Source of the DNA: Acidobacteriota bacterium
Lineage (GTDB): Bacteria; Acidobacteriota; Terriglobia; Acidiferrales; UBA7541
Assembly (NCBI GenBank): GCA_003167215.1
Contig: PMTV01000061.1
Span: 66,476-114,937, forward strand
Length of the DNA stretch: 48,462 bases
Reading direction: 5' to 3'
Below, in pieces: positions 2,840-45,978 of this stretch. The translations under genes were made by a program, and so were the position numbers. The notes under the pieces were generated by a model. That model did no database searches. It was not told the origin of the DNA and worked only from the letters and a program-made list of their open reading frames with translations. Each line of letters starts with the position of its first letter. The stretch's first letter is position 1.

Positions 2840-4054
2840 ATGACTGAATTTGTCTGCAAAGTCGGGGATACCACTGGTCGAGTTTTCCAGCAGATGGAGA
2901 CGGCACAGTCGGAGGCTGAGGCGAGGCAGAAACTTGCTGACCGGGGATTCTTCGTCTTCTCGGTTCGAATGCACTTCGATTTGCTTTCTCAGTTCAGCGG
3001 GGCTTCCCGCGAACGGAAGATTCGCCCTGCCGATTTTCTAATTTTTAACCAGCAATTCAGCACCTTAATCAAGGCGGGCTTGCCCATTTTGAAGGCGCTG
3101 GAGCTCCTCGCCGAGCGAGCCGCGGCGCCTCGCTTGAGGCCCATTCTCCAGGACGTGCGGCAACGCGTACGCGATGGGGCCCTGCTTTCCGAAGCGTTGG
3201 CAGCCCAGGGATCGTTCCCGGCGGTGTACGTCACGGCGATTTCGGCGGGCGAACGCAGCGGCAATCTAACGGGAGTCATCGATCAATATATTTCGTACTT
3301 GCGAGTGAGCACCGGTTTCCGCACCGCTTTGCTCACGGCATTGATTTATCCCGCGATTCTAGTGGTGACCGTAATTTTGGTTCTCAGCTACCTGGTGACA
3401 TATGCCATGCCTCAGTTTGCAAAACTTTATCAGGATCTGGGAGTGCCTTTGCCGGCCATGACGCAACTGATGCTGAACATGGCCGTGCCGCTGCGCAATT
3501 ATTTCGTCGTGTTTGCCGGGATTGCTGTTTTGATCGCTGCTGCTATTTTCTTGTGGACGCGGACGTTGGAGGGAGCGCTGGCGATCGACCGTTTAAAGCC
3601 CAAAGTTCCGATCGTGGGCGATATCTGGCTGAAAGGAGAAATCGCCCAGTTCCTGCGAACTCTAGCTACTCTTCTGGCCGGTGGCACACCGCTGGTTTCC
3701 GGGTTGCAGACATCTTCGGCTGCCATCGGAAGCCGCCTGATCGCGACTTCCGTCGCGCGAGCCTCTGAGCGAGTTCGCGAGGGCAAAAGCCTTAGTGAGA
3801 GCCTGTCCGAAACGCGATTAATCCCGCCCCTGGCTTTGGAAATGATCGAGGTTGGCGAAGCCTCTGGTGCGCTTTCGGCCATGCTGACAAGCGTCGCGGA
3901 ATTCTATGAAGAGGAAGTGAGCACCCGATTGCAGCGTACCCTGATATGGGTCACGCCGGCCATTTTGGTGGTTATGGCGGTGGTGGTAGGCTTTATTTTG
4001 ATTTCTCTCTATCTGCCTCTGTTCTCCCTCCAGATAGGATCTCCTGGAGGCTAG
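2840..4054 (+). CDS. Type IV pilus / type II secretion platform protein (PilC/GspF family)
   Basis: This 404-residue inner-membrane protein has two GspF domains. The first runs from about residue 60 to 190 (FLIFNQQFSTLIKAGLPI, then a membrane helix near LIYPAILVVTVILVLSY). The second runs from about 265 to 395 (FLRTLATLLAGGTPLVSGL, ending in a helix at ILVVMAVVVGFILISLYLPLF). Repeats of the AGxP and GExSG motifs are in place (SAGERSGNL, EVGEASGAL). The platform protein couples the cytoplasmic ATPase to pilin extraction. Seven bases separate it from the ATPase gene, so the two are translated together. Length is normal for the family. PilC and GspF cannot be separated by eye; the PilM/N/O genes downstream favour a type IV pilus. 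Confidence 0.93.
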   Translation: MTEFVCKVGDTTGRVFQQMETAQSEAEARQKLADRGFFVFSVRMHFDLLSQFSGASRERKIRPADFLIFNQQFSTLIKAGLPILKALELLAERAAAPRLRPILQDVRQRVRDGALLSEALAAQGSFPAVYVTAISAGERSGNLTGVIDQYISYLRVSTGFRTALLTALIYPAILVVTVILVLSYLVTYAMPQFAKLYQDLGVPLPAMTQLMLNMAVPLRNYFVVFAGIAVLIAAAIFLWTRTLEGALAIDRLKPKVPIVGDIWLKGEIAQFLRTLATLLAGGTPLVSGLQTSSAAIGSRLIATSVARASERVREGKSLSESLSETRLIPPLALEMIEVGEASGALSAMLTSVAEFYEEEVSTRLQRTLIWVTPAILVVMAVVVGFILISLYLPLFSLQIGSPGG

Positions 4055-9766: not shown

Positions 9767-9889
9767 CTTCGTTACGATTCGTCCTACCGAACCAGTCAAG
9801 CTTGCAGCGATTGTGTGTTTGCGCGGCGCAGGCAAACTTTTGATTAACAGTGCGGGGGAGTTGAATGTCGAGGCTCTTCCCGCCTCGGA

Positions 9890-10540
9890 TTATTTTCCGA
9901 TCGTAGGAGCGGTTGTTGAAGCCAGGCTCGCCGTGATTTTTCGCACGTACTTCTGTGTTTCGGGGAAGGGAGGAATGCCGCCGTACCGCGCAACCATGTC
10001 TGGTCCTGCGTTGTAAGCAGCCAGCGCTAAAGGCAAGTTGCCGCGATATCGCTCGAGGAGGTCCTTCAGGTAGTGTGTTCCTGCATCGATGTTCTGCGCC
10101 GGATCAAAAATATTTGCCACTGAATAGCGCGCTGCCGTCTCGGGAATTAATTGCATCAGTCCCTGCGCTTGTTTGCGGGACACCGCGCGGGGATTGAAAT
10201 TCGACTCCACGGCGATCAGGTGTGTGATTAATTTTTCGTTCACCCCATGCTTCAGCGCAGCCGCGTGAATCAAATTCCCAAAAGGGCCATTGGCCGGCGC
10301 CAGTGCCGGGAGCGCGGCAAATTGATCCTCAGGCTCGACGGAAAGCAGATCGCTGGCTTGCACTTCCACCGTGCCGCCGTCCATGGACAATCGCACGACT
10401 TCGCCCGAGCGCTCGTAGCCCGTGATATGCAGTCGAAGTCCCGAGCGCAGCACGGCATAGTCGGCCCGCGCGGTGGACGCGCCAGCCGCTGAAAAAATCA
10501 TCGCGGCGAATATCGTAATCAGAAGTGTTAGGCGACGCAT
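9890..10540 (-). CDS. Lytic transglycosylase (SLT domain), secreted
   Basis: The protein starts best at the ATG at 10540: the next residues (RRLTLLITIFAAMIFSAAG, then an Ala-rich cut site) form a signal peptide. A longer frame runs upstream but adds a non-signal tail. A small N-terminal domain is followed by a goose-type lysozyme/SLT fold: the catalytic Glu lies in AVESNFNP, followed by GLMQLIPETA and LALAAYNAGP. Such enzymes cleave the glycan of peptidoglycan to 1,6-anhydromuramyl ends. Placed tail to tail with the pilus operon, it could open the wall for the machine, but it may also act in general turnover. Length (216 residues) is normal for this class. Confidence 0.88.
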   Translation of the reverse strand: MRRLTLLITIFAAMIFSAAGASTARADYAVLRSGLRLHITGYERSGEVVRLSMDGGTVEVQASDLLSVEPEDQFAALPALAPANGPFGNLIHAAALKHGVNEKLITHLIAVESNFNPRAVSRKQAQGLMQLIPETAARYSVANIFDPAQNIDAGTHYLKDLLERYRGNLPLALAAYNAGPDMVARYGGIPPFPETQKYVRKITASLASTTAPTIGK

Positions 10541-10627
10541 TCGTGGTCTCTTACTTCGCTTTGTGTTCGCAACTCTCGGTGCTGTCCAATGATCAATTAT
10601 ACCGCGGCAGGCTCGCCACACGCCAAC

Positions 10628-11476
10628 TCATATCTTGCCGAGGGCGTAGGTACCAATAGCTTCCGCCAAGCCATTCTCATCGTTCGACGAGGTCATCGCC
10701 CAGCCGAACGATTTCAACTCCTCCACGCAATTGGCCATCACCACCGGCAGTCCCGCAAACTCAAGCATCTCGCGGTCGTTCCAATTGTCGCCAATGGCCA
10801 TTACCTCTTCTCGGGCAATTCCTCTGCGCCGGGTCCATTCTTTCAGCGCCACTCCCTTCGTGACGCCAGCCCGCAAAACATCGAGGATCGCAAAGTCGCG
10901 CTTCTCATACTCGGTTAGCGCAAGTGTAAATCCCGCCGCGATTGGCAGCGCCGCCAGTTGGCGCATCGCCGACCGGATGGGCCGGCACCCTCCGGTGTAC
11001 AACACCTGGATCGGGTCCTCGCCATTCAGGCAATCCACGAGCGGCGAGACCACGGCGATGTATGCGCGGTTCCGCTGAAAATATCCTCCGCGGCGCGGAT
11101 CGTCCCAGTCCACCTTTTCGAAAATAATCTGGCGCTCGAGCACCCGATCGAAAACAACCCCGGCGTTTGATCGAAATTCCGCGGTCGCTTCCAGCACTTG
11201 CCGCGCCGTATCGCTCGGGAGAAGAAGCTGCTGGTGCGTCTCGCCGTTCTTGCTCTTGATTAGCGCGCCGTTGTTCACGATCAAATGCAGATCGCACTTC
11301 AGTTCGTCGGCAATGGGGCGCGCGAAATCGAATCTCCTCCCGGTAACCAGCACAATCTCAATTCCGCGCGACGACGCCTCCGCCACTGCGCGCGCGTTCT
11401 TTTCCGGCAGTTGCCCACGGCTATCCAGCAGCGTTCCGTCAATGTCCATCGCAATCAATTTGATCGGCACGCTCAC
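10628..11476 (-). CDS. Cof-type HAD-superfamily phosphatase
   Basis: This 282-residue protein shows the HAD motifs in order: motif I DIDGTLLD near residue 11, motif II VTGRR near 44, a Lys in the long cap-containing middle, and motif III GDNWNDREML near 228. Cof/YidA-type (C2B cap) members hydrolyse small sugar phosphates or nucleotide phosphates. The substrate cannot be read from sequence. It begins at a GTG, 87 bases upstream of the transglycosylase start, in the same direction; the two may share a transcript. It diverges from the small membrane protein gene at 11694. Confidence 0.88.
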   Translation of the reverse strand: MSVPIKLIAMDIDGTLLDSRGQLPEKNARAVAEASSRGIEIVLVTGRRFDFARPIADELKCDLHLIVNNGALIKSKNGETHQQLLLPSDTARQVLEATAEFRSNAGVVFDRVLERQIIFEKVDWDDPRRGGYFQRNRAYIAVVSPLVDCLNGEDPIQVLYTGGCRPIRSAMRQLAALPIAAGFTLALTEYEKRDFAILDVLRAGVTKGVALKEWTRRRGIAREEVMAIGDNWNDREMLEFAGLPVVMANCVEELKSFGWAMTSSNDENGLAEAIGTYALGKI

Positions 11477-21043: not shown

Positions 21044-21119
21044 GGGCGTGTAGCTCAGTTGGGAGAGCGCATCGTTCGCAACGATGAGGCCGGGGGTTCG
21101 AGCCCCCCCACGTCCACCA
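21044..21119 (+). tRNA. tRNA-Ala (anticodon CGC)
   Basis: A complete 76-base cloverleaf is present. The acceptor GGGCGTG pairs with CACGTCC, including a G3:U70 wobble, the identity mark of alanine tRNA. The D arm is GCTC/GAGC, the anticodon stem CATCG/CGATG holds loop TTCGCAA (anticodon CGC), and the T arm has TTCGAGC. The CCA end is encoded. An integrase gene begins (3' end first) 26 bases downstream, so the tRNA 3' end is the probable attachment site. A weak -10 (TAGAAT at 20961-20966) lies upstream. Confidence 0.96.
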
Positions 21120-21144
21120 TCAAATCGTCAAGCAGGCGTGCGTT

Positions 21145-22248
21145 TCATTGATGTTTATTTGCTCGTGTTTCAGAATTGTATCGTTGCTGCGCAGCCCGAA
21201 CCGTGGCTTCGAGTTGGTCTTGGCGAGCCTTAACCCAAGGGGAGTAATGCTTTTCAGTGACTTTGATTGATTGATGTCCCAGCAGAACGGAAACATCGGA
21301 AAGCGACACCCCAGCGAGCAGCAATTCAACGGCGAACGTATCGCGCCAACGGTGTGCATGCCCGTTCTCGACCTTGGCTAGTTCGTATAGCGTCTTAAAC
21401 GCCCGCTGATAATCGCGGACACACGACTTTGTTGTGGAAAGCCCCGTCCAAAAATAATACCCATTCGGCTGCACTTCAGCATCCAGTGCTAACACAGCAT
21501 CTTTCGGCAACGGGACTCGAATGTCCGTTCCCGTCTTTGCGGTTCGTAGAATCAGAATTCCGTCTTTCAATTGGCGTTTCGAGAGTGTCACTGCGTCTGT
21601 GATTCTCAGTCCCGAGTGCCGCAATAGCAGAACAAGTGCCTTTAGTCGTGAGCCCCAGTGAGCATTGGGGTGCTTCGCACTCGGGTATTTATCGCACGCC
21701 GCCAGCACTCGATTAAATTCGTCTCTCGTGTACGGCATCGTTGGCGGCTGATTTACTTTCGGTGGAGTAATCGACAGAGCGTAATTCTTCGCAACCCACC
21801 CAGACTCCAAGCAAAAGCGAAAGAATGTCCTGAGTGCTTCCAGCTTCTTTCGCGCCGAGAAATTCTTATTTTTCCATGACTCACGAAAGAGCCGCAGTTC
21901 GTGGACGCCCAATTCATCGAGATGGGTCATGCCCTTCTCTTCAGCAAATGCATTCAATTGCTTGAAGAGCAATCGGTACTTGTAGACGCTCGGTGGACGT
22001 AGCCCCCTTGCTTCGGCGTCACGAATGAAAGATTGAGTAGCTTCGAGAATTGTCTTCTGAGCCTTATCGCCGTCCGTCTCCATCTTGAGAACTCGCTTCA
22101 TAGCGACTTCCCAGTTGCGTGTTCTAAGAGACTGCAATGTTCGTTTCGTTTTGAAGACCTTGTCCACCCAAATTGGGCATGAGCAGCGGCGGTAATTTCT
22201 GTCTCGGTGCGGACAGGTTCGGCTGTGCCTGCGAAATGCTTTAATCAT
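21145..22248 (-). CDS. int: Tyrosine-type site-specific integrase
   Basis: The 367-residue protein opens with a Cys/His cluster (CPHRDRNYRRCSCPIW) often seen in integrases of this phylum. A SAM-like core-binding domain follows (about 70-165) and then the catalytic domain. The active-site residues are all visible: Arg in HSGLRITDA, Lys in RTAKTGTD, His-x-x-Arg in HRWRDTF, His in LLGHQS and the nucleophile Tyr in KHYSPW. It transcribes toward the tRNA-Ala gene, with its stop codon 26 bases from the tRNA, the common layout of an element inserted at a tRNA 3' end. Its start overlaps the stop of the upstream DNA-binding gene by four bases (ATGA). Confidence 0.95.
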   Translation of the reverse strand: MIKAFRRHSRTCPHRDRNYRRCSCPIWVDKVFKTKRTLQSLRTRNWEVAMKRVLKMETDGDKAQKTILEATQSFIRDAEARGLRPPSVYKYRLLFKQLNAFAEEKGMTHLDELGVHELRLFRESWKNKNFSARKKLEALRTFFRFCLESGWVAKNYALSITPPKVNQPPTMPYTRDEFNRVLAACDKYPSAKHPNAHWGSRLKALVLLLRHSGLRITDAVTLSKRQLKDGILILRTAKTGTDIRVPLPKDAVLALDAEVQPNGYYFWTGLSTTKSCVRDYQRAFKTLYELAKVENGHAHRWRDTFAVELLLAGVSLSDVSVLLGHQSIKVTEKHYSPWVKARQDQLEATVRAAQQRYNSETRANKHQ

Positions 22249-22697
22249 TTCTTCGCCCGCTTGCGCTTCACTCGCTCCACAACTTCCCGTGGAATTCGCA
22301 GGGTGATGCGCTTTCTCTTTCCGCGTGGATGTTCTTCCCCGAGCGCAATGACGCCAGGTTCGTCGGTGAACAGTCTTCGGATTGTATCGGGTGAGAGATT
22401 CAGAAGAGCGGCGACTTCAGCGACCGAGTAGAAATCCTTGACGCCGGGGGACTCAGCCGAAGTTCTCTTCGCTTGGGGCTTCTCGGCGAGCGCACGAATT
22501 CTTTCGATGGCGGCATCATCAAACATATGGCAGGCAGGGAACGCAAAATCCTCCCGCACTTCGTTGGGACGCTTTGGAACCGGGAGATACACGGCGGGAT
22601 TGCTATCGGTCGGTTTTACCCTGCCAGTTGAAATCCACAATTGGAGCAATTCCACGGTTACGCCAGCACGCCGAGCGGCTTCTTTGATGCTGTGCAT
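22245..22697 (-). CDS. Excisionase-like / helix-turn-helix DNA-binding protein
   Basis: From the ATG at 22697 the protein has 150 residues. A helix-turn-helix at the N-terminus (IKEAARRAGVTVELLQLWI) resembles MerR/AlpA-type folds. The C-terminal half (DFYSVAEVAALLNLSPDTI) is a second such domain, followed by a very basic end (RVKRKRAKK). The upstream extension in this frame has no sign of being coding. The stop overlaps the integrase start, so the pair is translated together. It probably directs excision or represses the integrase; two tandem DNA-binding domains would allow binding of arm sites. Shine-Dalgarno is weak. Confidence 0.75.
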   Translation of the reverse strand: MHSIKEAARRAGVTVELLQLWISTGRVKPTDSNPAVYLPVPKRPNEVREDFAFPACHMFDDAAIERIRALAEKPQAKRTSAESPGVKDFYSVAEVAALLNLSPDTIRRLFTDEPGVIALGEEHPRGKRKRITLRIPREVVERVKRKRAKK

Positions 22698-22868
22698 GGG
22701 CGGGATGATACCACGCGACTGCTGCACGGGGTCAGAACGTGTGTCGAACCTAAACAGTACATCGGTACCACTGAAGGCGGAAGAGCAGCACTGCATTCCC
22801 CTCCGATTAGCAAAGGCGGAAACCCGCTGTGCGGGACGATTTAAATTCTCCAGAGGACAACCAAGATA

Positions 22869-22979
22869 ATGCTACGCCCATACCAATCCAAAACGCTCGA
22901 CGCCATTCGCTCAAACTATCAAGCAGGAATCCGACGACAAGTCGTAAGCGCAGCAACGGGCACGGGGGAGGCTTCTTAG
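22869..22979 (+). pseudogene. Truncated superfamily II helicase (N-terminal 36 residues)
   Basis: The frame from ATG at 22869 reads LRPYQSKTLDAIRSNYQAG, then AATGTGEAS and a stop. This is the start of a DEAD/DEAH-type helicase: the opening LRPYQ motif and the Walker A ATGTGKT, with the essential Lys-Thr changed to Glu-Ala and the rest missing. AGAGGA precedes the ATG. The stop falls inside the 3' end of the opposite-strand gene at 22976. I read it as a gene cut by a recombination event. The missing part was not found elsewhere in the window. Confidence 0.65.
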
Positions 22980-23728
22980 AATATAATCGTCGGCGTTGCG
23001 ACTAGCCTTACAGGTTGTAAGCTATATACCACCACAACCAAAGGATGTGACGGGCCGATACTCGTACTCACTGTTTCTCTAGCATGTATTCCCCTTGTGA
23101 AAGGCCCGCCGCCCATTTGCGCCCCCACGTTTTTTACAGTATGTGCAATGTCGGAAATTGGATTATCAAATTCTAGCGCGATGGTAAATGGCGCTGTCAC
23201 TTCTTGATTTGGCACAATTGTTATTTCGGTCTCAACAAAACCCTCTTTCGGGGGAAAGGCTGTTCCGGGTGAATCTACGGATGCAACGGTCAATACCAAT
23301 GGTGGTGGACCACAGTTTACATTGGCTTGATTGCCTGACCCACCTTGCTGAACCGAGCTACAGGGTCCCTGAGTTATCGAACCACTTTGTACATTGTCGT
23401 GACCGCTCTGAACTTGTTCTGCACGAGTCTTAGGTATCGAAGTAGAGGCAACTGATTTAGCTATTTCTGCTAGCTGAATTATTGGCGCGGGCGGGGGCTT
23501 CACATGAAGCACAACCGGAGGATTATCAGCCAACTGCTCGTACGCTACAGCCTGCGCCACAATCACGACAGCTACAAATATGGACGCACGCAGCCATGCT
23601 GGAACGGTCGTTTTCCGGTCGAAGAATCTCTCCCACAGGTCAACTGCTCCCGTCAGTAATAAGAGAATTCCCCAAACGTTTCCGAACACAATCCATAAAT
23701 AGTGGACGATTGAAGTAAAGAAGTGCAT
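22976..23728 (-). CDS. Membrane-anchored protein of unknown function
   Basis: The 250-residue protein has two helices near the N-terminus: VHYLWIVFGNVWGILLLLTG and then WLRASIFVAVVIVAQAVAY. A Pro-rich linker follows (VLHVKPPPAPIIQ), then a Ser/Gln/Gly-rich piece with CSSVQQGGSGNQANVNC, and a beta-rich C-terminal half. The paired Cys around the Gly-Asn-Gln motif recurs in uncharacterised membrane proteins; I know of no assigned role. It is on the - strand, between the helicase remnant and the non-coding locus at 23941. Its promoter is probably in 23729-23800. An origin in the mobile element is likely by position. Confidence 0.65.
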   Translation of the reverse strand: MHFFTSIVHYLWIVFGNVWGILLLLTGAVDLWERFFDRKTTVPAWLRASIFVAVVIVAQAVAYEQLADNPPVVLHVKPPPAPIIQLAEIAKSVASTSIPKTRAEQVQSGHDNVQSGSITQGPCSSVQQGGSGNQANVNCGPPPLVLTVASVDSPGTAFPPKEGFVETEITIVPNQEVTAPFTIALEFDNPISDIAHTVKNVGAQMGGGPFTRGIHARETVSTSIGPSHPLVVVVYSLQPVRLVATPTIIF

Positions 23729-23940
23729 CAGAGCAATTATTATACATGCCTTCTTTTGCTATAAGGTCCTCGCGGAGAAACGAAATCATACCAGATTCGC
23801 GCCAAAGCCAATGTAACCCTCAGTGAATACAGCGGTTGGGAGGATTCGTTACATGGGTACAAGATGGTCCAAGAATGGGTCACAATTGCACTCGATGCGG
23901 ACTGTCCAGAAGTGGGACGTGCCGGTTTGGTAATTCATGC

Positions 23941-23969
23941 TTGACATTTTGGACGCGGCGTGTTATCAT
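23941..23969 (+). promoter_or_regulatory. Strong sigma-70 type promoter
   Basis: TTGACA (23941-23946) is a perfect -35 box, and TATCAT (23964-23969) a five-of-six -10 box with an exact 17-base spacer. No credible coding sequence follows for about 460 bases, which suggests it drives a non-coding transcript. Confidence 0.7.
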
Positions 23970-23975
23970 ATTTGT

Positions 23976-24221
23976 ACGTTGTTTTTTGCCCCGCCGAAGC
24001 AACACTCTGGCAGGACACCCCAAAGAAGCTGATTCGATGATTTTCGTAGCGCACGCCGGGCTGCGACGCAGGGCGAACTGCGAGACTGGTTTTTTAAGTG
24101 ATTGTCCGCGAAGGGTATTCCTAGATTTTCGTTTAAGTTTGTGCCTACTCGCCCTAGGACAATCACTCAAAGAAGCCAGATTACATTTGCCTGCAAAGGC
24201 ATTTGTGAATCTGGCTTTTTT
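23976..24221 (+). ncRNA. Candidate small RNA (about 245 nt)
   Basis: A transcript from the promoter at 23941 would end at the terminator at 24173-24221. It holds an 11-bp perfect inverted repeat, AGTGATTGTCC (24097-24107) with GGACAATCACT (24157-24167), around 49 bases. Inside, CCTAG and CTAGG can also pair. Frames across the region on both strands have no protein-like pattern. No known RNA family is recognised. The evidence is structural only. Confidence 0.45.
24173..24221 (+). terminator. Rho-independent terminator with long hairpin
   Basis: AAGCCAGATT (24173-24182) pairs fully with AATCTGGCTT (24208-24217). The inner arms pair as well, apart from a TT/TT internal loop. T residues follow from 24216 to 24221. 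It ends the candidate small RNA and also shields the gene at 24435. Confidence 0.8.
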
Positions 24222-24434
24222 GTTTTCCGGCGAATGCTGTGAGGCACGCACCTCCAAGAACGACTAAGTTTTTCGTGACGACTGTCGCGGAATGCAGCAA
24301 GTAGCAGGGATTTTCCACAAGCGAAACTACCTCAAGTTATTTCGCCTCAAGTGTTGTTCCCGTCGCAAGACAAAATCAAAACCTGAAAACTAAACAAAGT
24401 CTTATCCCACGAATTGGATAAGCAAGGAAGAATC
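24222..24434. other. Non-coding leader before the ssDNA-binding-like gene
   Basis: This stretch, with 23729-23940, makes up the remaining gene-free part between 23729 and 24434. A 7-bp inverted repeat (CTTATCC at 24401-24407 with GGATAAG at 24416-24422) ends just before the Shine-Dalgarno AAGGAAG (24424-24430). It could be an operator or a hairpin that hides the ribosome binding site. Nothing else is seen. Confidence 0.45.
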
Positions 24435-24953
24435 ATGTCATTCACATTCAACAGCGGTAAACAGTTTCAAGTTGCAGAAGAAGGCAATCACCAAGCCGTC
24501 CTAGCCGCGTTTATCGACGTGGGAAAGTCCGAGGGTGAGTTCGGTGAAAAAGACCAAGTTATTGCAGTCTGGGTACTGGACGTCAATGACGAGGAGAGCG
24601 GAGAGCCGCTTATCGCGGTGCAGTATTTAACAAAGTCGGTTCACGAGAAGGCGAATCTGACGAAAGTCGTCAAAGCCCTTACAGGGTCGTTTCCCTCCCT
24701 CGCCTTCAAGTTCGATGACTTGATGGCGCTGCTGGGGCGCGGGGCCACTTTGGCACTCACGCACGTTGAGAAAGAAGGTCGCGTCCGCTCGAAGATTGTT
24801 CTTGTATCAAAGCCCGACGCCAAAGCAGAAACCGTGGCTGTTCCCGAAGGTTGGGAGCCGCCAGCAGGTTTAACGAAGGGCGCCCTCGGTGTCTACACGT
24901 CGGCTTTACTGGCTGCACAAAACGACGAGAAGACTGCAGAAGACGTGATTTAG
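24435..24953 (+). CDS. Phage/plasmid-type protein, possibly ssDNA-binding (replication accessory)
   Basis: The ATG at 24435 follows AAGGAAG at 24424-24430; a TTG 21 bases upstream is less likely. The 172-residue protein begins FTFNSGKQFQVAEEGNHQAV and has HEKANLTKVVKALTG in the middle. This layout resembles small single-strand annealing or ssDNA-binding proteins of phages (DUF669-like), with an OB-like beta-rich first half. I cannot name the family with certainty. It lies one structured gap upstream of the primase-helicase, a common neighbour of such proteins. The acidic C-terminal tail (NDEKTAEDVI) recalls SSB tails that bind partners. Confidence 0.6.
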   Translation: MSFTFNSGKQFQVAEEGNHQAVLAAFIDVGKSEGEFGEKDQVIAVWVLDVNDEESGEPLIAVQYLTKSVHEKANLTKVVKALTGSFPSLAFKFDDLMALLGRGATLALTHVEKEGRVRSKIVLVSKPDAKAETVAVPEGWEPPAGLTKGALGVYTSALLAAQNDEKTAEDVI

Positions 24954-25005
24954 TTTTCAGCAAAGTTTGTAGTGTTTAAAGAGCCCCCCACGCAGCAAGC
25001 GCGGT

Positions 25006-25088
25006 CTCGCAGGTTCGCCTGCGAGGGCGTGTTGGCTTAAGTAACCAACAAGGCGGCTGGTGCCTCATCCTCGCCAGCCGTCTATTTT
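25006..25088 (+). terminator. Consecutive hairpins between the two replication genes
   Basis: CTCGCAGG-TTCG-CCTGCGAG (25006-25025) is a perfect 8-bp hairpin with a TTCG loop. GTTGG and CCAAC (from about 25031) can form a small second one. GGCGGCTGG (25052-25060) pairs with CCAGCCGTC (25074-25082) and is followed by a T-rich tract, as in a terminator. The set may reduce read-through into the primase gene or act as an attenuator. Confidence 0.5.
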
Positions 25089-25133
25089 CCTACTAGGGAT
25101 GAACGCAGCCCAATTCGATTCTAAGGATGACAC

Positions 25134-27350
25134 ATGAAAGAAGCAGTTCAACAACTAAAAAGATTATTCGGCGAGTCAGTGAACACTTTGTTGCTGATTT
25201 GCTTTATGTTCTTGCCAACAAACGGACGCCCGCCGCTGCATGAATTCAAAACTTTAGAGGAAGCCGTCAGCGATGGATACCAAGTCCATCTCGAAAAGAT
25301 GAACAAGACGCATCACGTCTACGTCTCGATGGCTTTTTTCAAGCCTGGGTCGACACGACGCAAGAAAGAGTCCATCGCGGAATGCTCCCACGTATTCATT
25401 GAAGTTGACGAAGATGGCGAGGCGAAACTTAGGGAAGTTCGCGCCGCAATTGAAACAGGCGAAATCCCAGAACCTTCTGTGATTCTGGAATCAAGCCCGC
25501 ACCATTTTCACTTCAAGTGGAATGTCGAAGGTTTCGATGTAGCTGCCTGTGAGGCGATGAATCGTTCTCTCGTGGCTCGATTCGGCGGCGATAGACAATC
25601 TACAGATGCGGCACGCTTACTGCGCGTGGCCGGTTTCCGCAATCACAACCATGAAGGAAAGCCGCCGGTTAAACTCATTTCGCTGGGTAATTGTCTCGAC
25701 TTGCCGTTTACTGCAAACGATTTCCACATTCCGCTGGAGCAACCAAAACCAGTGGTTGAATACGAGGCGGGCAGTGACGCGGAAGTGCAAACCAACATCG
25801 GATGCCTAAAGACGGCGTTCGACGCCGCAGGTGTGGAAGTCAAATATTCAAAACCTTGGGACGGCGTAGGCTTACTCTTTGAACTTGTTGAATGCCCGTG
25901 GAGCGACGTCCATACCAAGAATGAATTTAACGGCACGGATAACATCAAGGGTGGCTGCGGTGCGATGGTGTTTGCTAGCGGTGCCTACGATTTCAAATGT
26001 TTCCATGACCACTGCGTAGATAGAACCTGGGACGACTTCAAAGCGTATTTGATTGAGCACGCGCAAGGCGTCAAATTGAAGTGGAGCGACGCCGGGGAGA
26101 TTGTGTTCCCCGCGCCTCGTGCTGAAATCCCAACGACGTTGGGGGCGGGGGAAGAACTAGAAGAAAACGAAGCGCAAGACGTGGAAGAACCCCTGCCAGA
26201 TTTCACTTCGGGGCTCACGGGTTCGATTGCGGACTATTGTCGTGCGGTCGAGCCTGACTTCCCCATGGAGTTCAAGGTTATGTCTTGCGTAACCAAGATT
26301 GGTTTGGCTCTCAGTGGCAAAACGGCTATGGTGGGCGCACCGAATGTGCAACCCAGGTTTTTCACTGCCTTGCTTGCGGAAGCGGGGTGGGGCAAGACGG
26401 GAAGTATCCAAACAACATTGTTGGATGACCCTTCACTCTACGCTACTGCGCTATCAGTGGAAACAGGACCCGCGTTGGTTGCCACGTTTCAAAATTGCGC
26501 CAAGCACGTTCCGCCGAATGAACCCTTGAGACTGCTGATATCGCCGGATGAAATCAAAGACGTGTTCGAAAAGTCCAAAGCCTCTAAAGAAGCCAAAGAC
26601 TCTTTGGGCACGAAACTATTGCTGCTGTTCGAGAACAACAGCACAGGCAACAACACAAAGCAGGACGGCGACATTCAAATCAAGAATGCACATCTCGCCA
26701 TGTTGGGTGGCGCGACCCCGTCAGTCTACGATGCCATGTGGGGCAATACTGCGGGTGCAGGTGGTGGGATGCAATCACGCATGACGCCTATCGGCACGAA
26801 CAACAAGGAAGTGCCGTTGGAACGACGTGAGACGAATACGGAAGCCATGGGGAGTGCATTGGTGCGCATTCTGCACCAAATCGAAAAAGCGCCGTCTTTG
26901 ATTCACGTTTCCGATGAAGCAAAAGCCATCATGCAATCATGGTGGAACGAGATTAGAACCCGCGACGTCGATAAGCGTCATTTGACGCGCATGTCGGACA
27001 TCGTGAAACGGTATCTCATCGTGTTGGCGGTCTCGAATGACACCGATGTCGTGAACGAGCCTTTGATGCGGATGGGTGTGGACTTTGGTAACCACGTCTT
27101 AGCTATGAGGATTCGGCATAATCCACAAGATGCTTCCAACCCTACCCAGCAGTTCGAGAACCGCATCGAACCGTGCTATCGGAAGCATGGGGATATGACG
27201 GACAGACAACTGATGCAGCGGATAAAGCCGGATAGATTTCCCGGCGGATACGGGGCGTTCAACCAAGCCAATCGCAATTTGCGGGAAGCAGGTCGGGTGA
27301 TGCCAAGGGCACAAATTAAGGGCAGTCGAAAACATATGTGGGGTCTGTGA
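25134..27350 (+). CDS. Primase-helicase fusion replication protein (RepB-like primase plus DUF3987-like ATPase)
   Basis: This 738-residue protein probably starts replication of the element. Residues 60-210 form a RepB/AEP-type primase core: VFIEVDEDG (metal-binding acids), SSPHHFHFKW and TDAARLLRVAGFRN match its motifs in order. A zinc-binding stretch (CPWSDVHTKN to CFHDHC, about 265-300) follows. The C-terminal half is a P-loop ATPase of the DUF3987 type: EAGWGKTGS is Walker A near residue 420 and LRLLISPDE Walker B. The ATG at 25134 has AAGGA at 25123. Length and domain order suit plasmid and phage replicases. The next gene begins within its stop (TGATG). The iteron-like array is 450 bases downstream. 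Confidence 0.85.
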   Translation: MKEAVQQLKRLFGESVNTLLLICFMFLPTNGRPPLHEFKTLEEAVSDGYQVHLEKMNKTHHVYVSMAFFKPGSTRRKKESIAECSHVFIEVDEDGEAKLREVRAAIETGEIPEPSVILESSPHHFHFKWNVEGFDVAACEAMNRSLVARFGGDRQSTDAARLLRVAGFRNHNHEGKPPVKLISLGNCLDLPFTANDFHIPLEQPKPVVEYEAGSDAEVQTNIGCLKTAFDAAGVEVKYSKPWDGVGLLFELVECPWSDVHTKNEFNGTDNIKGGCGAMVFASGAYDFKCFHDHCVDRTWDDFKAYLIEHAQGVKLKWSDAGEIVFPAPRAEIPTTLGAGEELEENEAQDVEEPLPDFTSGLTGSIADYCRAVEPDFPMEFKVMSCVTKIGLALSGKTAMVGAPNVQPRFFTALLAEAGWGKTGSIQTTLLDDPSLYATALSVETGPALVATFQNCAKHVPPNEPLRLLISPDEIKDVFEKSKASKEAKDSLGTKLLLLFENNSTGNNTKQDGDIQIKNAHLAMLGGATPSVYDAMWGNTAGAGGGMQSRMTPIGTNNKEVPLERRETNTEAMGSALVRILHQIEKAPSLIHVSDEAKAIMQSWWNEIRTRDVDKRHLTRMSDIVKRYLIVLAVSNDTDVVNEPLMRMGVDFGNHVLAMRIRHNPQDASNPTQQFENRIEPCYRKHGDMTDRQLMQRIKPDRFPGGYGAFNQANRNLREAGRVMPRAQIKGSRKHMWGL

Positions 27351-38311: not shown

Positions 38312-40501
38312 TCACGCTATCTGGTCTTGAGCAAACGGATCATCCGGGTTTCCGCCTCGTTTTCTAAAATCGTATTCCTTGAGAAACTGATTGGCAGCTC
38401 GTCGCTGTCGATCTGAAAGCGACATGTTCTCGCTCAGGTTTCGCACACGACTTACGATTTGATCCGCGTCGAGATAAACTTCCAGCCAGCGTGGATCAAG
38501 CCTGTCGCGTTTTTGACCGACGGCATCGCCAAGGCTGAAGCTGGTGCTACTCTGAAGGCATCTTTCCAAGAATTCCGCTAGTTTACGCTCATCCCTCACG
38601 GTCTCTGCTACCCAAGCCCGCGGTTCGTCTCTCCCTTCCTTTTCACTCCAGAAGTTGAGCACCAGCAGCAGCCGAGGGGTACATAAGAGGGAGCCATCCT
38701 GACTTGCACGACGTGTCTTCGTCACTAGGATTCGGTCAAACTCCAACAACTGCTCGCGAGTTACAAACCACTCCTGCTCGGGGCTCGCTTGTTCGCCGTA
38801 CAAACCTTGTTGTTGACCAAGGACAATGAGCGACTTTTGAATTACGTAGAGTCCGCGCCCACGTTCAAACGCTTGCTTGAGTATTTCGTAGCGACGAGGT
38901 GCTTCAAGCCGCTTAAGAAGTTGCCAGATGACCCTACCACTCTGAACATCAACACCCAGATCGAATAAACCGGAACCCACTTCATCTGGTCGTATCAGAT
39001 TGTCACCGATATCCAAAAGGGCTGAGACGATCGGTTCGACCTGGTCAAGACCTATCTCGGTCGCGGTATAGTCTTGCAATCGGACTAGGAATGCACCTGC
39101 CTTAGTCTTCCCATCTGGCCGAATCTGGTCCGCCAGTTTAAGAATTTCAGCGCGGAACAGCTCAGCACTTCCTGCGCTGGTAAGGATTGCTTGCATCTCT
39201 GAATTCGAGATTTCGCCCGTCGGGATGGCGAGACTGAAATAGACCGGAAATATCGAGTCGCTACATACACGCACTTGGCGACGCCACTCAGCCTCCCACT
39301 CGAGCCCGAATTGCGTATTGCCCCAAACTGCCTGGAGTTTGGGAAAAAGGCGCTGCACCATGGCCTTTGTAGGTTCTTCAAGAAGTGGACTGATTTCACG
39401 AATACGATCCAGCCAATTATTGTGAAACTGAGTTAACTCGGCCCTGCCAGGACGTCGCGCGTTGTCGGGCGCATGGCCGGTGAACATTTCCCGATTGTTT
39501 CTGATTGTGTCATAGACTTCTGGGCAAAACATCCGAAGCGACTCGATGGCGATGAAATCGACCGGATTCACCTCGCCGATGACCGCGCGAAAAGTAACCG
39601 CAAGAGCATTCGTGAATCGAACCACGTCCCTAGGAGTTTCAAGGAAATTATCGATACCGTCTAAGAAGATATTTCCCCAGTATGTTTGATTGAAGCTCTT
39701 AGGATCGACTCCCGTGAGTATCTTGTCCACCTGTTCGACAAAGAGCGTTCGAATCGAGACACGGTCAACTAGCGGAAGCTCAAACGGGATTTGCACAATT
39801 TTCTCAAGATAATCCTCGCCTGAACCTCCCTGAAGTTCCCCCAATGATCGAACAACCACGCTCTTATCGAATGCCATAAGATAGGTCACGTTTGGGAAAT
39901 CGCCGACTGACTTAACAGCACGGAAGACTTGCCTAATTTCCTCCGATGTCAGGCGATCTATATCATCAATCATTACAAGAATGCGTCGCGGTTGGTTTCG
40001 AAGCGCGGTCGAGATTTCGTTCTTCAACTTTTCGATATCTTTGGGTTTCGGTCGAAGTATCTTTCCGGCTAACTTTCCCCAACTGACGTACGGTAAAGGC
40101 ATCTCCGAGAGGGCCTCAGCAAAATCCGCTAATCGGCTCCGCACCTCAGACGGAAATTCTTTCCGCTCTTCAATTCTTGCCCGCAGTTGGCTAAAGAATG
40201 CCCGAACCAGATCTTCATGGCCTGAGAACCACCACGGGTTATATGAAACGACAACTGGCTGCTCGCTTTGCCCCAGTTCACTCAGGTAATGCCGCACATA
40301 GTTGAGCATTGTCGTCTTGCCGAAGCCCCACTTGCCGTAAAGGGCCACAACGTGGCCCTCTGCCCGCGGCAACCCAGCGATGCTCTGCGCCAAGCGCTTC
40401 GCGAACGGTGCGTATCCGAGGCGATCCGATTTCGGGTCGCTACCAGGCCGATCAGCGGAGAGATCGGATGGTATCTGGGCTTCACGAGGATTCGTAGTCA
40501 C
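38312..40501 (-). CDS. KAP-family P-loop NTPase
   Basis: The 729-residue protein has a KAP NTPase domain. Walker A is GKWGFGKTT at residues 56-64; the Walker B ILVMIDDIDRL is at about 174-184, with the typical NVTYLMAFDK strand after it. Many KAP proteins carry membrane helices inside the NTPase domain, but none is clear here, so this one is probably cytosolic. The C-terminal half (about 330-729) is helical and unmatched. KAP proteins are linked to phage exclusion and are common in defence islands. It is 262 bases downstream of the DUF499 gene in the same direction; it could be part of that unit or have its own promoter. The start ATG at 40501 is clean. Confidence 0.8.
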   Translation of the reverse strand: MTTNPREAQIPSDLSADRPGSDPKSDRLGYAPFAKRLAQSIAGLPRAEGHVVALYGKWGFGKTTMLNYVRHYLSELGQSEQPVVVSYNPWWFSGHEDLVRAFFSQLRARIEERKEFPSEVRSRLADFAEALSEMPLPYVSWGKLAGKILRPKPKDIEKLKNEISTALRNQPRRILVMIDDIDRLTSEEIRQVFRAVKSVGDFPNVTYLMAFDKSVVVRSLGELQGGSGEDYLEKIVQIPFELPLVDRVSIRTLFVEQVDKILTGVDPKSFNQTYWGNIFLDGIDNFLETPRDVVRFTNALAVTFRAVIGEVNPVDFIAIESLRMFCPEVYDTIRNNREMFTGHAPDNARRPGRAELTQFHNNWLDRIREISPLLEEPTKAMVQRLFPKLQAVWGNTQFGLEWEAEWRRQVRVCSDSIFPVYFSLAIPTGEISNSEMQAILTSAGSAELFRAEILKLADQIRPDGKTKAGAFLVRLQDYTATEIGLDQVEPIVSALLDIGDNLIRPDEVGSGLFDLGVDVQSGRVIWQLLKRLEAPRRYEILKQAFERGRGLYVIQKSLIVLGQQQGLYGEQASPEQEWFVTREQLLEFDRILVTKTRRASQDGSLLCTPRLLLVLNFWSEKEGRDEPRAWVAETVRDERKLAEFLERCLQSSTSFSLGDAVGQKRDRLDPRWLEVYLDADQIVSRVRNLSENMSLSDRQRRAANQFLKEYDFRKRGGNPDDPFAQDQIA

Positions 40502-40763: not shown

Positions 40764-43700
40764 TCAGTGCGTTTCGAGATCGGAAGTTAGGCCCAATTCC
40801 TGCAACGCCATTCGAGTTTCTTCAATTCTTTGCGTAGAAATTCCACCCTCGGGGCTTACTTCAATACTCAGAGTCAACTTCAGTCCTTGCGCGCCCGCGA
40901 ATTTGGAGAGGACCTTGGTATAGAAGTTCATCCACTTCTGGGCGGGTATCTCACCGGTCCACTTTAGTGCCCCAGGTGTCGCCGGGGGCCGTGGTGTTAG
41001 CAGCGGTTTCGATCCCGGCTTGACGACATCGAGCATCGCCGAGCCTTTGACTGCTCCACTGCTGGCCGTAACGGCAAAACTTCCTTCGTCTTGTGCTGCC
41101 GTAAACACGCCATCCTTATCAATCGAGCCACCCGTCGCCTTCCACTCCACGCCGGCAATGGCAATATCCTGACCGTATTGATCGACTCCTCGGACAATGT
41201 AAGCCTGTCTCTTGCCGGGCTGGATTTGTACGCTACCTGGTGACACAACCAGCGATGCGAGTACTGGAGGCTTTTCTTTCAACTTCTTGTAATTCTCAGC
41301 CGTCTCATGCGTCACGATATACATGTCATCAGAAATCTCTACATCTTGCGCATTGAGGCTGCCCCCGTAGCGAAATGGTTCATACTCACCCGAAGCAGAT
41401 TTCCCAACGTACGCGAGCACCTGCCCCTCGACACCTCGCGCAATCGTGTCTTTGATCGACTCGGGATCGAGAAGCCTCGGAAACAAGGGAGACGCGAAAA
41501 GCGCATCACGGACCGCTTTTGTACTCCATTCCTTGAACGCGGGATTCCAGTTCCTGACTAACAAATTGGGACTGATACCTTTTTCAACTTCTCCATCTTT
41601 CCGTAATCGTTCGAGAATGAACGTAACCATCGAGTCCGCCGCGCTCGAATGAACAAGGCCAAGGTCCACGGTGCGCAGTTGGTTGTCTTTTCCCAAAAGC
41701 GCGATATTTTTGTAGGTGCGCCACACACTTTCCTTAAGGTCTCGCTGCGCCTTCTTCACGTTTTCGTTTAGTTGACGCTTCTGCGTTTCATCGAGATTCA
41801 AGTCTTCCTGTTCGTCTCCTATATCTTCCCAGGCCAAAACCTTTCTCGCTTCGTCGTGAATCGACCCCGCTGAATCCGCAACGCTCCATAGAAGCGCGCT
41901 CTTGAAAGTCCGCGAAGAGCCGCCACATTCCCTCGTCATTGATTCGACCATCTGCATGGCCTTCGTTTTGTCCTGCATCGAAATATCCGGTCCAAGAATC
42001 GCCAGAGTGAGTACCGGGCGGTCGGGTATCTGCCCGCTCTGCTCGGGAAAATAGACTCGTTCCAATCCTGATCCGGCGCTGAACACCCGTTGAATTTCAG
42101 TACGCGCCCGCTCATCAATCTTCGGCGGCTGAATACTGGCCCGCCTGTCAGCGAATCGTTTATTGAGGTTCTCTTTTAAACTGAAGTGGTAACGCGTGCG
42201 CTCAACGGTCAGGTAGTAGCAGGCCTCGGTCAGCGATTCGAGGACAGTTTCAACATTTCCAATATCCAAAGATGGTTCGGCAACAGCGAGGCGAATCTCC
42301 GGCACGGTCGCTTCAACGCGGGTTTGTCCGCCATTCGATTCGAAAAAGATTGTCGTCGCTGCCTTACGGTGAAGGCGTGCCCTCTGAATCGATTCCACTG
42401 CTTCTTTGTCGAGGCGGATAGCGTGCGAATCTTTTTTGCCGCAAATATCAGTAGTAATGGCGCCCTCTAAACGTGGCTCTCCTAATTGCTCGAATAGGGC
42501 CGCACGAAACATCGGGTCTTCCAGCGGAGCCGTACCGATGCCGATCAGAGGGTCACGATGTGCGCCTTTGAATCCTTCCTGATAAGCCTTCGACACCCAT
42601 AGAGCCAATAAGCGCAAGATGCCCCGTGTTCTTTGGAAGCGAGGCAATGCTTGCCACTTGCGCTCAAAGACCGACAAAACCGAGGGGTGAAACGGGTAGG
42701 TCGCGGCGAAAGCTTCGCGCCCTCCATCAACTGGAAACCATTCGGGAATCTGCTGTCTGTGTTCGAGAATCCAGTCAGCATACTCCGCGATTGCCTCGCG
42801 TGCTTCGTCCGGTACGCCGTGCCACTCAAAGAGCCGCCGCCTAATAATTTCAGAAGTCTCGGCTTCAGCCGACATCATCACGGCCTTGCCCACGCGATCC
42901 AGAAGCTTCTTGAATCGTTGTTCGTCCGCTTCATCTTCGGACGTGTATTCAAGTTCGGACGCCGGAATTGATACCACCAAGACAACATTGTCCTGGCCCC
43001 GCACCGTTTCCGAGAGCGCCTGAATAAAATTGTAGAGTGAATTGTGGTAGCCCTTCTTGCGATACGTGCTGACGTAATTGATGATTTCATCCATAAGAAT
43101 CAGACAAGGCCGATCCTTGGGCAACATGGCACGAATCACGTCGCCCTTCGGCTCGATGAACTGTTTCTCGTGCTCCGCAACGAGGGCAAACGACTTCTCG
43201 CCCCCAAGCTGGAAGGCGATTTCGCCCCAAGGAGTCTTTCGCAATGGCGTCCCGTCGTTCCCTCCGCGTCCGGTGAGCGAGTCGAACTCGGTTCCGACGA
43301 ACACAGCAGTAGCTGCTTCAGGAACGGACGAAATACCTGCTTTCTCCAGCAGCTGGGGCACACCTGTCCATTTGTCGGCTTTCGCTCCGCCTTTGGCCAA
43401 GTGATAGAGGAGAGTCAGCGCGTGGGTTTTGCCGCCACCAAACTGAGTCGCCATGTTGAAAACGGCGGAGGTCTCGGTTTTTTCTCCCGACAAGCGGCGA
43501 ATTACTTGAGCGCCAAGCGTTGTAAGTGTCTGCGTCAGATAGGTTCGCTCGAAAAACTGATCGGGTCTCTGATAGTCCGACGGCGCACGCCCGTCGCGAA
43601 CCTGATCGAGGTGGACAGCAAACTCCGCAGCATCGAGCGGTCTTCCTTCGCGCAAATCCTCTCGCGGCGTGACAACCTTGTACCAGGGTTTGAGGGCCAT
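40764..43700 (-). CDS. DUF499-type defence-associated ATPase with Ig-like segment
   Basis: The 978-residue protein starts at the ATG at 43700 after GGAGGA. Residues 1-20 (KPWYKVVTPREDLREGR) and the P-loop TQFGGGKTH (85-93) are typical of DUF499 ATPases; the Walker B LILMDEI is at about 200-206. The middle is helical. Residues 814-893 look like an Ig/Big-type beta domain (LASLVVSPGSVQIQPGKRQA). The last 85 residues return to the DUF499 end (WTGEIPAQKW, then LSIEVSPEGGIS). DUF499 ATPases occur with a DUF1156 methylase in antiphage clusters and in BREX (as PglY/BrxC relatives). Sixteen bases separate it from the 195-residue gene upstream. The partner methylase is damaged here. Confidence 0.85.
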   Translation of the reverse strand: MALKPWYKVVTPREDLREGRPLDAAEFAVHLDQVRDGRAPSDYQRPDQFFERTYLTQTLTTLGAQVIRRLSGEKTETSAVFNMATQFGGGKTHALTLLYHLAKGGAKADKWTGVPQLLEKAGISSVPEAATAVFVGTEFDSLTGRGGNDGTPLRKTPWGEIAFQLGGEKSFALVAEHEKQFIEPKGDVIRAMLPKDRPCLILMDEIINYVSTYRKKGYHNSLYNFIQALSETVRGQDNVVLVVSIPASELEYTSEDEADEQRFKKLLDRVGKAVMMSAEAETSEIIRRRLFEWHGVPDEAREAIAEYADWILEHRQQIPEWFPVDGGREAFAATYPFHPSVLSVFERKWQALPRFQRTRGILRLLALWVSKAYQEGFKGAHRDPLIGIGTAPLEDPMFRAALFEQLGEPRLEGAITTDICGKKDSHAIRLDKEAVESIQRARLHRKAATTIFFESNGGQTRVEATVPEIRLAVAEPSLDIGNVETVLESLTEACYYLTVERTRYHFSLKENLNKRFADRRASIQPPKIDERARTEIQRVFSAGSGLERVYFPEQSGQIPDRPVLTLAILGPDISMQDKTKAMQMVESMTRECGGSSRTFKSALLWSVADSAGSIHDEARKVLAWEDIGDEQEDLNLDETQKRQLNENVKKAQRDLKESVWRTYKNIALLGKDNQLRTVDLGLVHSSAADSMVTFILERLRKDGEVEKGISPNLLVRNWNPAFKEWSTKAVRDALFASPLFPRLLDPESIKDTIARGVEGQVLAYVGKSASGEYEPFRYGGSLNAQDVEISDDMYIVTHETAENYKKLKEKPPVLASLVVSPGSVQIQPGKRQAYIVRGVDQYGQDIAIAGVEWKATGGSIDKDGVFTAAQDEGSFAVTASSGAVKGSAMLDVVKPGSKPLLTPRPPATPGALKWTGEIPAQKWMNFYTKVLSKFAGAQGLKLTLSIEVSPEGGISTQRIEETRMALQELGLTSDLETH

Positions 43701-43716: not shown

Positions 43717-44304
43717 TCAGGCTCGACCGAACCGTCCTACGTTGGTGTCGTATATCCAATCCTTAAAGAACCCATAGGGAAACGTTTTCGATTCAGACCG
43801 CGAACCGACAACGACAAGGGTTTCCCCAAGCAGGGCGGCTCGTTCCGGTAGCTCCATCGCTTGTGCGGCCTCAGCGGAGAGATGTCGAACTAGCTTCGCT
43901 CCCTCGGCTCCATCCTCGCGATAGCAGAAGACAACGCGCAGTTGCGCGCGAATGCACAGGACCTTCCACAACGAATAAGCGACGCGGTCGTCAGTCACGC
44001 TGTTTTCCAATTCAAAAACCGCAACTGGAAAACGCCAGTGCCGCTCCCCAACTGGCTCGAAAGCGATTGCATCGAGCCCTAAGTATTCTTGTCGCGAGAC
44101 GGGAAGTAAGCTCGGCTTGTGCCCCTTCGCAGCACCTTTCCACTCCATCGCTTCGCAAGTGGCGACCACAACCGAAGTCAGCGCTCGAGTCCAGTCGCCT
44201 AGTTGCGCTCTTATCGCCGCGTCACGCAACAGCCCTGAGGCCTCGTGACCGCGAACTGTTTCCATGAATTTTGCGAACCATCGTTCGGCAAGCGCGTGGG
44301 CCAT
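43717..44304 (-). CDS. Defence-cluster protein of unknown family (possible PD-(D/E)xK-like fold)
   Basis: The 195-residue product begins at the ATG at 44304, which overlaps the stop of the chimera upstream (TGATG). It is helical at the N-terminus, then reads LGLDAIAFEPVGERHWRFPV and VAVFELENSVTDDRVAYSLW. An Asp, then a strand with Glu-x-Glu, then a helix with a Lys (SLWKVL) resembles the order of a PD-(D/E)xK nuclease core, but the usual Lys after the second acid is not in place. It stands where a DUF3780-type accessory protein is found in similar clusters; I cannot confirm that match. No membrane segment is seen. Confidence 0.6.
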   Translation of the reverse strand: MAHALAERWFAKFMETVRGHEASGLLRDAAIRAQLGDWTRALTSVVVATCEAMEWKGAAKGHKPSLLPVSRQEYLGLDAIAFEPVGERHWRFPVAVFELENSVTDDRVAYSLWKVLCIRAQLRVVFCYREDGAEGAKLVRHLSAEAAQAMELPERAALLGETLVVVGSRSESKTFPYGFFKDWIYDTNVGRFGRA

Positions 44305-45533
44305 CAGAAACCTAGCCCCTTCTTCCTTGCCAATACGCCTTCCACCCAGCGTCTTTCATCAGTTCCTTTCGGGTAGAGAGCTGAAAGCGCCTGCGCCAAA
44401 CGCCAAAATCTCTGATCCTGACCAGCACCGTCCGCTACCAAGAAACGTTTAAGCGCTTCGCCCCGACCTGCCCCAAAAAGGATCATGCTTTGATGAATCC
44501 GATCAAGGACCGTGTTCCCTAGCCTAGAAGCAGTCTTTTCGCTCCAACCCCTCCCCGATTCTTCGGCTTCCCCTAACACATCGAGTAAGGAAAGCTGCTT
44601 CGGTTTGCCTTTTTGCTTCGTTGGAGCGACACCTTCATTTTTCCCGAAGAGATAACGTGCGCGCTCCGAAACGGGCAGTAGCCTTGCTTTATCACCGTTG
44701 ACATCGACTAAACTGGACAACTGCTCAAAATGTGCCCCTAAACCTTGAGCGATTTTACGAGCTGCGTCATATTCCAAGATGAATCCCGTCAGCTTCGCTT
44801 TCTTTTCAACCACTGCATCTTCCCCTTGCTCCTCAGGTTCATCTGAATCGTCGTCAGTCGTAACAGTGGTGTCTTTGTTTGTCGCTCCCGCAGAAAGTGT
44901 CCACAGCCACATAGCCGTAAGACGCGCATCCTCTTCAAAGCCAGTCGCATCGGCTCCGGCAAAGATCATATTCAATGCCTCTTTGGCGACGGCAGCCCAA
45001 ACATACTCAAGATACTCCTTAAGAAATACCCGCTCGCCGCTGGCCTTCTCTACCCGGGCGTAGCGAGAGAAAATCTCTAACGCCGGACCCAGGCAAGCGA
45101 AGATAGCGTCGGCCCCGACGATTCCTTCCGTTTGAAGGCGAGGCATCCATTCCTCCATCCGTCTGGGCAACTCCGCAAGAACATCCCGCCAATCGCCAAC
45201 ATCGACAGTCCGACTGTGGCTATCGTAATTCTCGCGTGGCCGACACACCAAGTGAATCGACGATTGGAGAGATGCTGAATCCTGAGCCTGTGTCCGGTTC
45301 TGATTTTCAGTATCAATCGGCCATGAGGCTGTGATCCTCCATTCGCTCTCGATAACGGCGGTGAGCAGGGCTTCCCAACTTGACGTCCGAGTATCTGCAA
45401 AAACCACGACACCGATACCGTTTGGTCTTATGATTCCTCGCGCTCGCGCCAGCGCCGCCGTTTCCAGTTGCGCGTACTCTTCCTCGCTCACTTTGAAACC
45501 GATGGATTTCGTGCGCAGCGGCGGCTTCACCAT
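44304..45533 (-). CDS. Chimera: ribbon-helix-helix start fused to C-terminal half of a DUF1156 methylase
   Basis: The first ~28 residues (RTKSIGFKVSEEEYAQLETA) are the start of a ribbon-helix-helix protein of the MobC/CopG kind. After about residue 30 the sequence switches to the C-terminal half of a DUF1156 DNA methylase: RPNGIGVVVFADT, ASWPIDTE, IHLVCRPREN, then ALEIFSRYARVEKASGERVF and EEDARLTAMWLWTLS. The catalytic N-terminal half, with the SAM-binding and NPPY-type motifs, is missing. DUF1156 methylases are usually about 900 residues, so this has 409. AGAGGAAG precedes the ATG at 45533, so it may be expressed. It is coupled to the 195-residue gene. Probably a recombination product; a regulatory role for the remnant is possible. 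Confidence 0.75.
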   Translation of the reverse strand: MVKPPLRTKSIGFKVSEEEYAQLETAALARARGIIRPNGIGVVVFADTRTSSWEALLTAVIESEWRITASWPIDTENQNRTQAQDSASLQSSIHLVCRPRENYDSHSRTVDVGDWRDVLAELPRRMEEWMPRLQTEGIVGADAIFACLGPALEIFSRYARVEKASGERVFLKEYLEYVWAAVAKEALNMIFAGADATGFEEDARLTAMWLWTLSAGATNKDTTVTTDDDSDEPEEQGEDAVVEKKAKLTGFILEYDAARKIAQGLGAHFEQLSSLVDVNGDKARLLPVSERARYLFGKNEGVAPTKQKGKPKQLSLLDVLGEAEESGRGWSEKTASRLGNTVLDRIHQSMILFGAGRGEALKRFLVADGAGQDQRFWRLAQALSALYPKGTDERRWVEGVLARKKGLGF

Positions 45534-45613
45534 GTCCCGGCTTCCTCTCTCGCCATCACAGCCGAGACTAGCAGCCGCGCTTAAGAATCAACAAGTTCGC
45601 CTGCGTTAACTTC

Positions 45614-45743
45614 CGGTTGCTCGACAGCAACCGCATCGGCGGGATTTTTCCTCTAGCCGCTCTGGTTTCAACAGGTTCGCGCACGGTAACCGAAGGTTAC
45701 CGCACAGCTCCCTTTCAGGGGTGGAGTGTCTCCCTTCCACCCC
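45614..45743. repeat. Three strong hairpins in the 5' region of the chimera
   Basis: CGGTTGCT-CGAC-AGCAACCG (45614-45633), GGTAACC-GAA-GGTTACC (45685-45701) and GGGGTGGA with TCCACCCC (45718-45743) are perfect inverted repeats within 130 bases. They lie upstream (on the - strand) of the MobC-like start. Accessory relaxosome proteins bind such inverted repeats at transfer origins, so the stretch may be an oriT remnant. It may also be a leader RNA. Confidence 0.55.
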
Positions 45744-45978
45744 GTGCGCAGCACGGCTAAAAACCTCCACCCCGCCACCACACCTCCGGGAGCGCCCAAC
45801 CGCCCGCACCACCGGGCCGGAATCGCCACACTGCACGGTCCAGATCGGCGGCGGAATCAGGATCGGAAAGCGCGGCTAATCGGACCCGGATCACAGCGCG
45901 GATCGGCGGCTAATTCCCCGTGGTACGGGAACGGATCGGCAGGGCCAAACGGCAGCTAAGGAAAGAACTCGCCCCGGC
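45744..45978. other. GC-rich gene-free stretch with GATCGG repeats
   Basis: No gene is seen. GATCGG occurs at 45843, 45861, 45901 and 45933, in part within a longer pattern (GATCGGCGGC followed by AAT or TAAT). The copies are degenerate and unevenly spaced. It may be the edge of a mobile element or a repeat remnant. Confidence 0.4.

Follow-up and report, generated by a model that had tools for sequence, protein, structure and literature searches.

The window, that is, the whole stretch of 48,462 nucleotides analysed from a draft genome of an Acidobacteriota bacterium (contig PMTV01000061.1), contained on its minus strand an open frame with an ATG start, the 409-aa translation of which is a chimera of the head of a ribbon-helix-helix (RHH) mobilization protein and the tail of HmaB, the N6-methylase of the Hma defence system. 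The features at this locus, in the order of transcription, were as follows.

45595-45762, minus strand: conserved structured leader of a mobilization cassette, oriT-like or a structured RNA
44304-45533, minus strand: the fused gene, 409 aa
45434-45533, minus strand: start of an RHH (NikA/MobC-like) mobilization gene, no more than codons 1-33, 64% to 67% identity over 25 aa
45237-45433, minus strand: remnant of the HmaB methyltransferase core, its last strands, residues about 34-99, delimited by alignments and an AF2 model
44304-45206, minus strand: C-terminal region of HmaB, residues about 110-409, 58% to 68% identical to the intact HmaB proteins in its subgroup
43717-44304, minus strand: intact gene for a 195-aa protein, an hma accessory gene with a predicted restriction-endonuclease fold
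40764-43700, minus strand: intact hmaC, DUF499 AAA+ ATPase of 978 aa (PADLOC HmaC 2.9e-131, Pfam DUF499 2.1e-21)
38312-40501, minus strand: KAP-family P-loop NTPase, PifA-like (Pfam KAP_NTPase 2.1e-59, PADLOC PifA 1.3e-118)

Residues 1 to 25 of the fused protein matched RHH mobilization proteins (E 1e-6 to 1e-7), a full-length relative of which matched Pfam NikA-like (4.7e-9). The match stopped at residue 25; the second helix, SEWVRDALL in the relatives, was absent and the strand-helix-helix fold was incomplete. When full-length relatives were aligned, homology to HmaB began at residue 34 to 36 or so, equivalent to HmaB residues about 643 to 648 of 1021, and reached the last residue, and about 375 of some 1020 HmaB residues (the C-terminal 37% or so) were kept. 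PADLOC matched residues 47-209 to positions 671-820 of the 967 positions of the HmaB profile (E 1e-21); a Pfam search of the 409-aa protein gave no match. Homology started after the DPPY motif, at HmaB residue 645 or thereabouts, and the fused protein lacked this motif, the SAM motif (FAGGG), the TRD insert and the DUF1156 domain, which sits N-terminally in intact HmaB (Pfam 9.5e-23 in the nearest relative, G546). The junction was located within codons 25-34, nt 45432-45461, and third-position GC was 0.76 in codons 1-25 versus 0.48 in the next 25. The stop codon overlapped the ATG of the next gene (TGATG), the same 1-base overlap as that between hmaB and the 195-aa gene in Planktothrix, and across the three genes from the fused gene to hmaC, roughly 1,580 codons, there was neither a stop nor a frameshift.

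The original prediction had proposed an RHH mobilization-type start running in frame into a decapitated DUF1156 methylase within a defence operon, with a junction at 45430-45465 and the coupling to the following genes kept; the 25-aa RHH match, the HmaB homology from about residue 34, the junction given by full-length alignment and the TGATG overlap agree with it on each of these points. It had further described the remainder as the C-terminal half of the methylase, which is correct for the end retained and too large for its size, just over a third remaining. The methyltransferase half, said to be gone, is missing together with its SAM and DPPY motifs, and the loss exceeded the methylase domain and included HmaA.

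The Hma system was named in PADLOC (PMC8565338) and has been described as a Type-1 DUF499-centred, BREX-related and restriction-modification-like system, in which the methylase protects self DNA and the helicase-nuclease cuts (PMC12839542). The nearest intact relative, G546, encoded HmaA, HmaB, the 195-aa protein and HmaC in an uninterrupted series, and shared with the window 68% identity in the HmaB tail, 68% in the 195-aa protein and 74% in HmaC (across residues 1-976); thus, the right parent of the fusion was an hma operon. Planktothrix had the same gene order, except that two additional genes separate the helicase from the methylase. No match to the SF2 helicase HmaA was found in the window, and the genome to which it belongs gave just weak helicase matches (31% to 34% identity over 86 aa); the N-terminal 600 aa of HmaB were also absent from this genome, which is 96% complete.

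The leader had 23 matches in 89 genomes of the family, compared to 0 for the reversed control pattern, and its hairpins showed paired changes. Fourteen of the 20 copies examined were located 130-200 bp before an RHH gene, and no match was obtained in an Rfam search. It may be an as yet unnamed structured RNA, or else serve an acidobacterial mobilizable element as its transfer origin. Further copies were observed at L113:1630-1800(-), L117:1262-1440(+), L111:1400-1568(-) and L116:1470-1632(+). Complete RHH relatives in genomes G061 and G071 were about 110 aa long and were followed by a gene of about 290 aa (orf290), after which G071 and a second contig of G061 carried a 924-aa TrwC relaxase; TrwC represents the relaxase family of plasmid R388. 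Since the leader in the window lies 191-194 bp before the RHH start, as in the intact cassettes, the left parent of the fusion was the head of such a mobilization cassette; orf290 had no match in the window. Elsewhere in the window, nt 21044-27350 contained a tRNA-Ala, a tyrosine recombinase (21145-22248), a MerR/HTH gene (22245-22796) and a RepB-primase/DUF3987 protein (25134-27350). An integrase beside a tRNA-Ala, together with a RepB-type primase, fits the left end of an integrated element, and no second tRNA-Ala end closing the element was found in the window.

The gene for the 195-aa protein was present in about 28 of 80 related hma loci, and residues E73, D78, E98, E100 and K114 were invariant in the alignment columns. 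Its AF2 model (pLDDT 89) had mostly restriction-endonuclease-fold nucleases as its top VIA-align rows (NucC, BstYI, BglII and BamHI), with Z up to 7.6 and so below 8; there was no Pfam match above the cut-off and no significant Foldseek match. E73, D78, E98 and E100 are arranged much as in the active site of BamHI, and the invariant residues and the model together suggest a restriction-endonuclease fold whose active site is BamHI-like. The KAP NTPase gene comes directly after hmaC and is absent beside the hma locus of G546; it is probably a neighbour outside the hma operon.

The C-terminal 280-300 residues of these methylases are described as three helix-turn-helix (HTH)-like domains (PMC12839542); the corresponding region of the fused protein is homologous in sequence to HmaB, and the domain assignment is taken from that study. 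The AF2 model of the fused protein (pLDDT 66) was mostly helical in the region of the HTH triad and low in overall confidence; residues 1-12 were of very low confidence, the helix at 17-34, to which the RHH head contributes, aligned with a methyltransferase helix, and residues 17-103 matched the C-terminal parts of Rossmann methyltransferases with Z up to 7.0. When the fused protein was searched against solved structures and folds, it returned just weak methyltransferase matches, again at residues 17-103. Judged by its sequence, the fused protein cannot methylate DNA, and any DNA binding would, if anything, come from the C-terminal HTH triad, a part that the original prediction did not name.

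Branch lengths were compared with those of the nearest relative, G546, using G653 as the outgroup. The HmaB tail had a branch of 0.18 in the window and 0.15 in G546 (CI of the difference -0.04 to 0.11), HmaC 0.11 versus 0.18, and the 195-aa protein 0.13 versus 0.28; these sequences gave no sign of free drift of the remaining genes. As a long-functionless scar should look worse, the lack of stops and frameshifts and the normal rates indicate that a scar would be recent or that the rest of the operon is partly selected. On relaxed constraint in the methyltransferase remnant the signals were mixed: its profile score, fifth lowest of 78 (z -2.0), hinted at it, but the fixed-tree branch ratio of 0.77 did not, and the odd residues FAD..TSSWEA were shared with L035, an acidobacterial HmaB that is intact. 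A count of departures at strongly conserved columns was unremarkable.

A search of 399 genomes of the class found 23 that matched HmaB, including that of the window, and the junction was absent from the 22 others; neither the junction nor the RHH head was present in the 80 best related loci, and a junction search of viral contigs found nothing. A full HmaB of about 1000 aa was encoded in 59 of the 64 related loci that had at least 2.1 kb of upstream sequence. On the two corresponding checks named in the original prediction, the fusion was thus found only here, and the N-terminal part is not normal for the family, within these genomes and loci.

Several other hma loci were found to be broken. 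In locus L050 (Sphaerospermopsis), helicase residues 1-381 run out of frame into HmaB at residue 504 or so; the region, nt 8481-11155 and chromosomal, comprised the N-terminal third of the helicase and the HmaB tail, with hmaC intact. Locus L049 (Scytonema) kept 60 helicase residues, with HmaB from about residue 489. In locus L043 (Verrucomicrobia), whose contig ends 1.2 kb further up, the head of a TrwC relaxase (4.1e-47) meets HmaB at residue 563 or so, again out of frame, and L038 (Dethiobacter) had an internal deletion in HmaB (398-633) with hmaA kept. In all four the methylase core was wholly or partly gone but the HmaB tail and a full HmaC were kept, and most of hmaA was also lost in L049 and L050; in contrast to the window, however, their breakpoints lay elsewhere and none carried the RHH head. 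Additionally, L075 had HmaB from about residue 658 and no HmaC, and G207 carried an hma operon that was a pseudogene throughout. Locus L147 (G741:C32, about nt 2985-3400, minus strand) had the start of HmaA in frame with the last 78 HmaB residues, and no HmaC. These seven cases indicate that deletion has broken hma operons repeatedly and with end points that vary. Because its patterns came from the HmaB tail, the first survey was blind to losses of the tail; an HmaC-based survey within the phylum found that loci in which HmaC is intact and the contig long enough encode a full HmaB.

The fusion is probably a scar of a deletion or an illegitimate recombination. A break would have joined codon 25-33 or so of the RHH gene that heads an integrated mobilizable element to about codon 645 of hmaB; with it would have gone the remainder of the mobilization cassette, hmaA in full and the two thirds of hmaB that are catalytic. 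The in-frame join would be due to chance (1 in 3). The RHH start site should now drive the fused protein and then, since the TGATG overlap is preserved, hmaC and the 195-aa gene as well. Lacking the helicase-nuclease HmaA, the operon should not restrict phage in the known way. We infer all three of these points, a single deletion event, expression of the fused gene and loss of the defence function. The scar is supported by losses of this kind at the other broken hma loci, among which L043 likewise had a mobilization gene as its upstream parent. No locus with an intact mobilization cassette directly before an intact hma operon was found, and the arrangement that preceded the deletion is therefore one that we infer.

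It is unlikely, by comparison, that the locus is a retained module lacking the methylase, in which the HTH triad of HmaB would bind DNA, dock on HmaC and act with the nuclease-like 195-aa protein in a DNA-scanning or abortive defence without self-methylation. Such a module would account for the open frames and normal substitution rates of all three genes, the intact HmaC, the conserved residues E73, D78, E98, E100 and K114 with the restriction-endonuclease-like fold, and the other four loci that kept the HmaB tail and a full HmaC. However, the breakpoint was different in each of these truncated loci and the 195-aa gene was present in none of the four; the deletion in L050 looks recent owing to its very short branch, and G207 and G741 represent plain decay after a like loss. 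In the HmaC-based survey, acidobacterial loci on long enough contigs keep a full HmaB, and the recurrence is partly a sampling effect of the first survey, which selected for the HmaB tail. The broader proposition, that the HTH triad, HmaC and the BamHI-like nuclease make up a minimal but working defence unit in no need of methylase or helicase, a state that hma operons would repeatedly reach by loss of their front half, is more doubtful still.

An assembly or library chimera, by which two unrelated fragments were joined in the draft, would explain why the junction occurs in no other genome and why GC steps at the junction, and the draft of 68 contigs and the position of the gene near a contig end would allow it; it is improbable, as the RHH head and leader are single-copy in the genome and thus offer no repeat to misjoin, neither missing half turns up anywhere in the assembly, not even at the end of another contig, and the join is in frame with the TGATG coupling intact. 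The DNA-binding regulator suggested in the original prediction, taken here to mean that the RHH head binds the mobilization leader and controls the operon, draws on the native place of the head behind the conserved leader and is very improbable: an RHH fold requires one strand and two helices per monomer, whereas about 33 residues at most are left, with the strand and the first helix but not the second, and in the model the helix at 17-34 aligns with one of a methyltransferase.

If the locus is a scar, it shows how hma operons carried by mobile elements are taken apart starting at the front, and warns that a DUF1156-family match next to a DUF499 ATPase need not mean a methylating system. If the remainder is selected, DNA recognition and the ATPase of BREX-related systems would be separable from methylation, here in a natural deletion mutant. 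The single feature that lifts the remnant above a curiosity is the nuclease-like 195-aa protein kept without the methylase, which would be either inert alone or able to work without self-marking.

Compared to the RHH-orf290-TrwC cassettes of the acidobacterial integrative elements in G061 and G071, the window has the leader and the RHH start at the same spacing, but it keeps only 25-33 codons of the RHH gene, and its genome has no TrwC relaxase. Compared to the Hma system, it has an intact HmaC, the C-terminal region of HmaB, and the gene order and 195-aa gene overlap seen in G546 and Planktothrix, but neither HmaA nor the DUF1156, TRD, SAM and DPPY parts of HmaB, and its start is borrowed from another gene. 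As read from the sequence, membership in a working Hma system fails on two of the three core parts, and the locus is best filed as a degraded member of this known system at a mobile-element scar.
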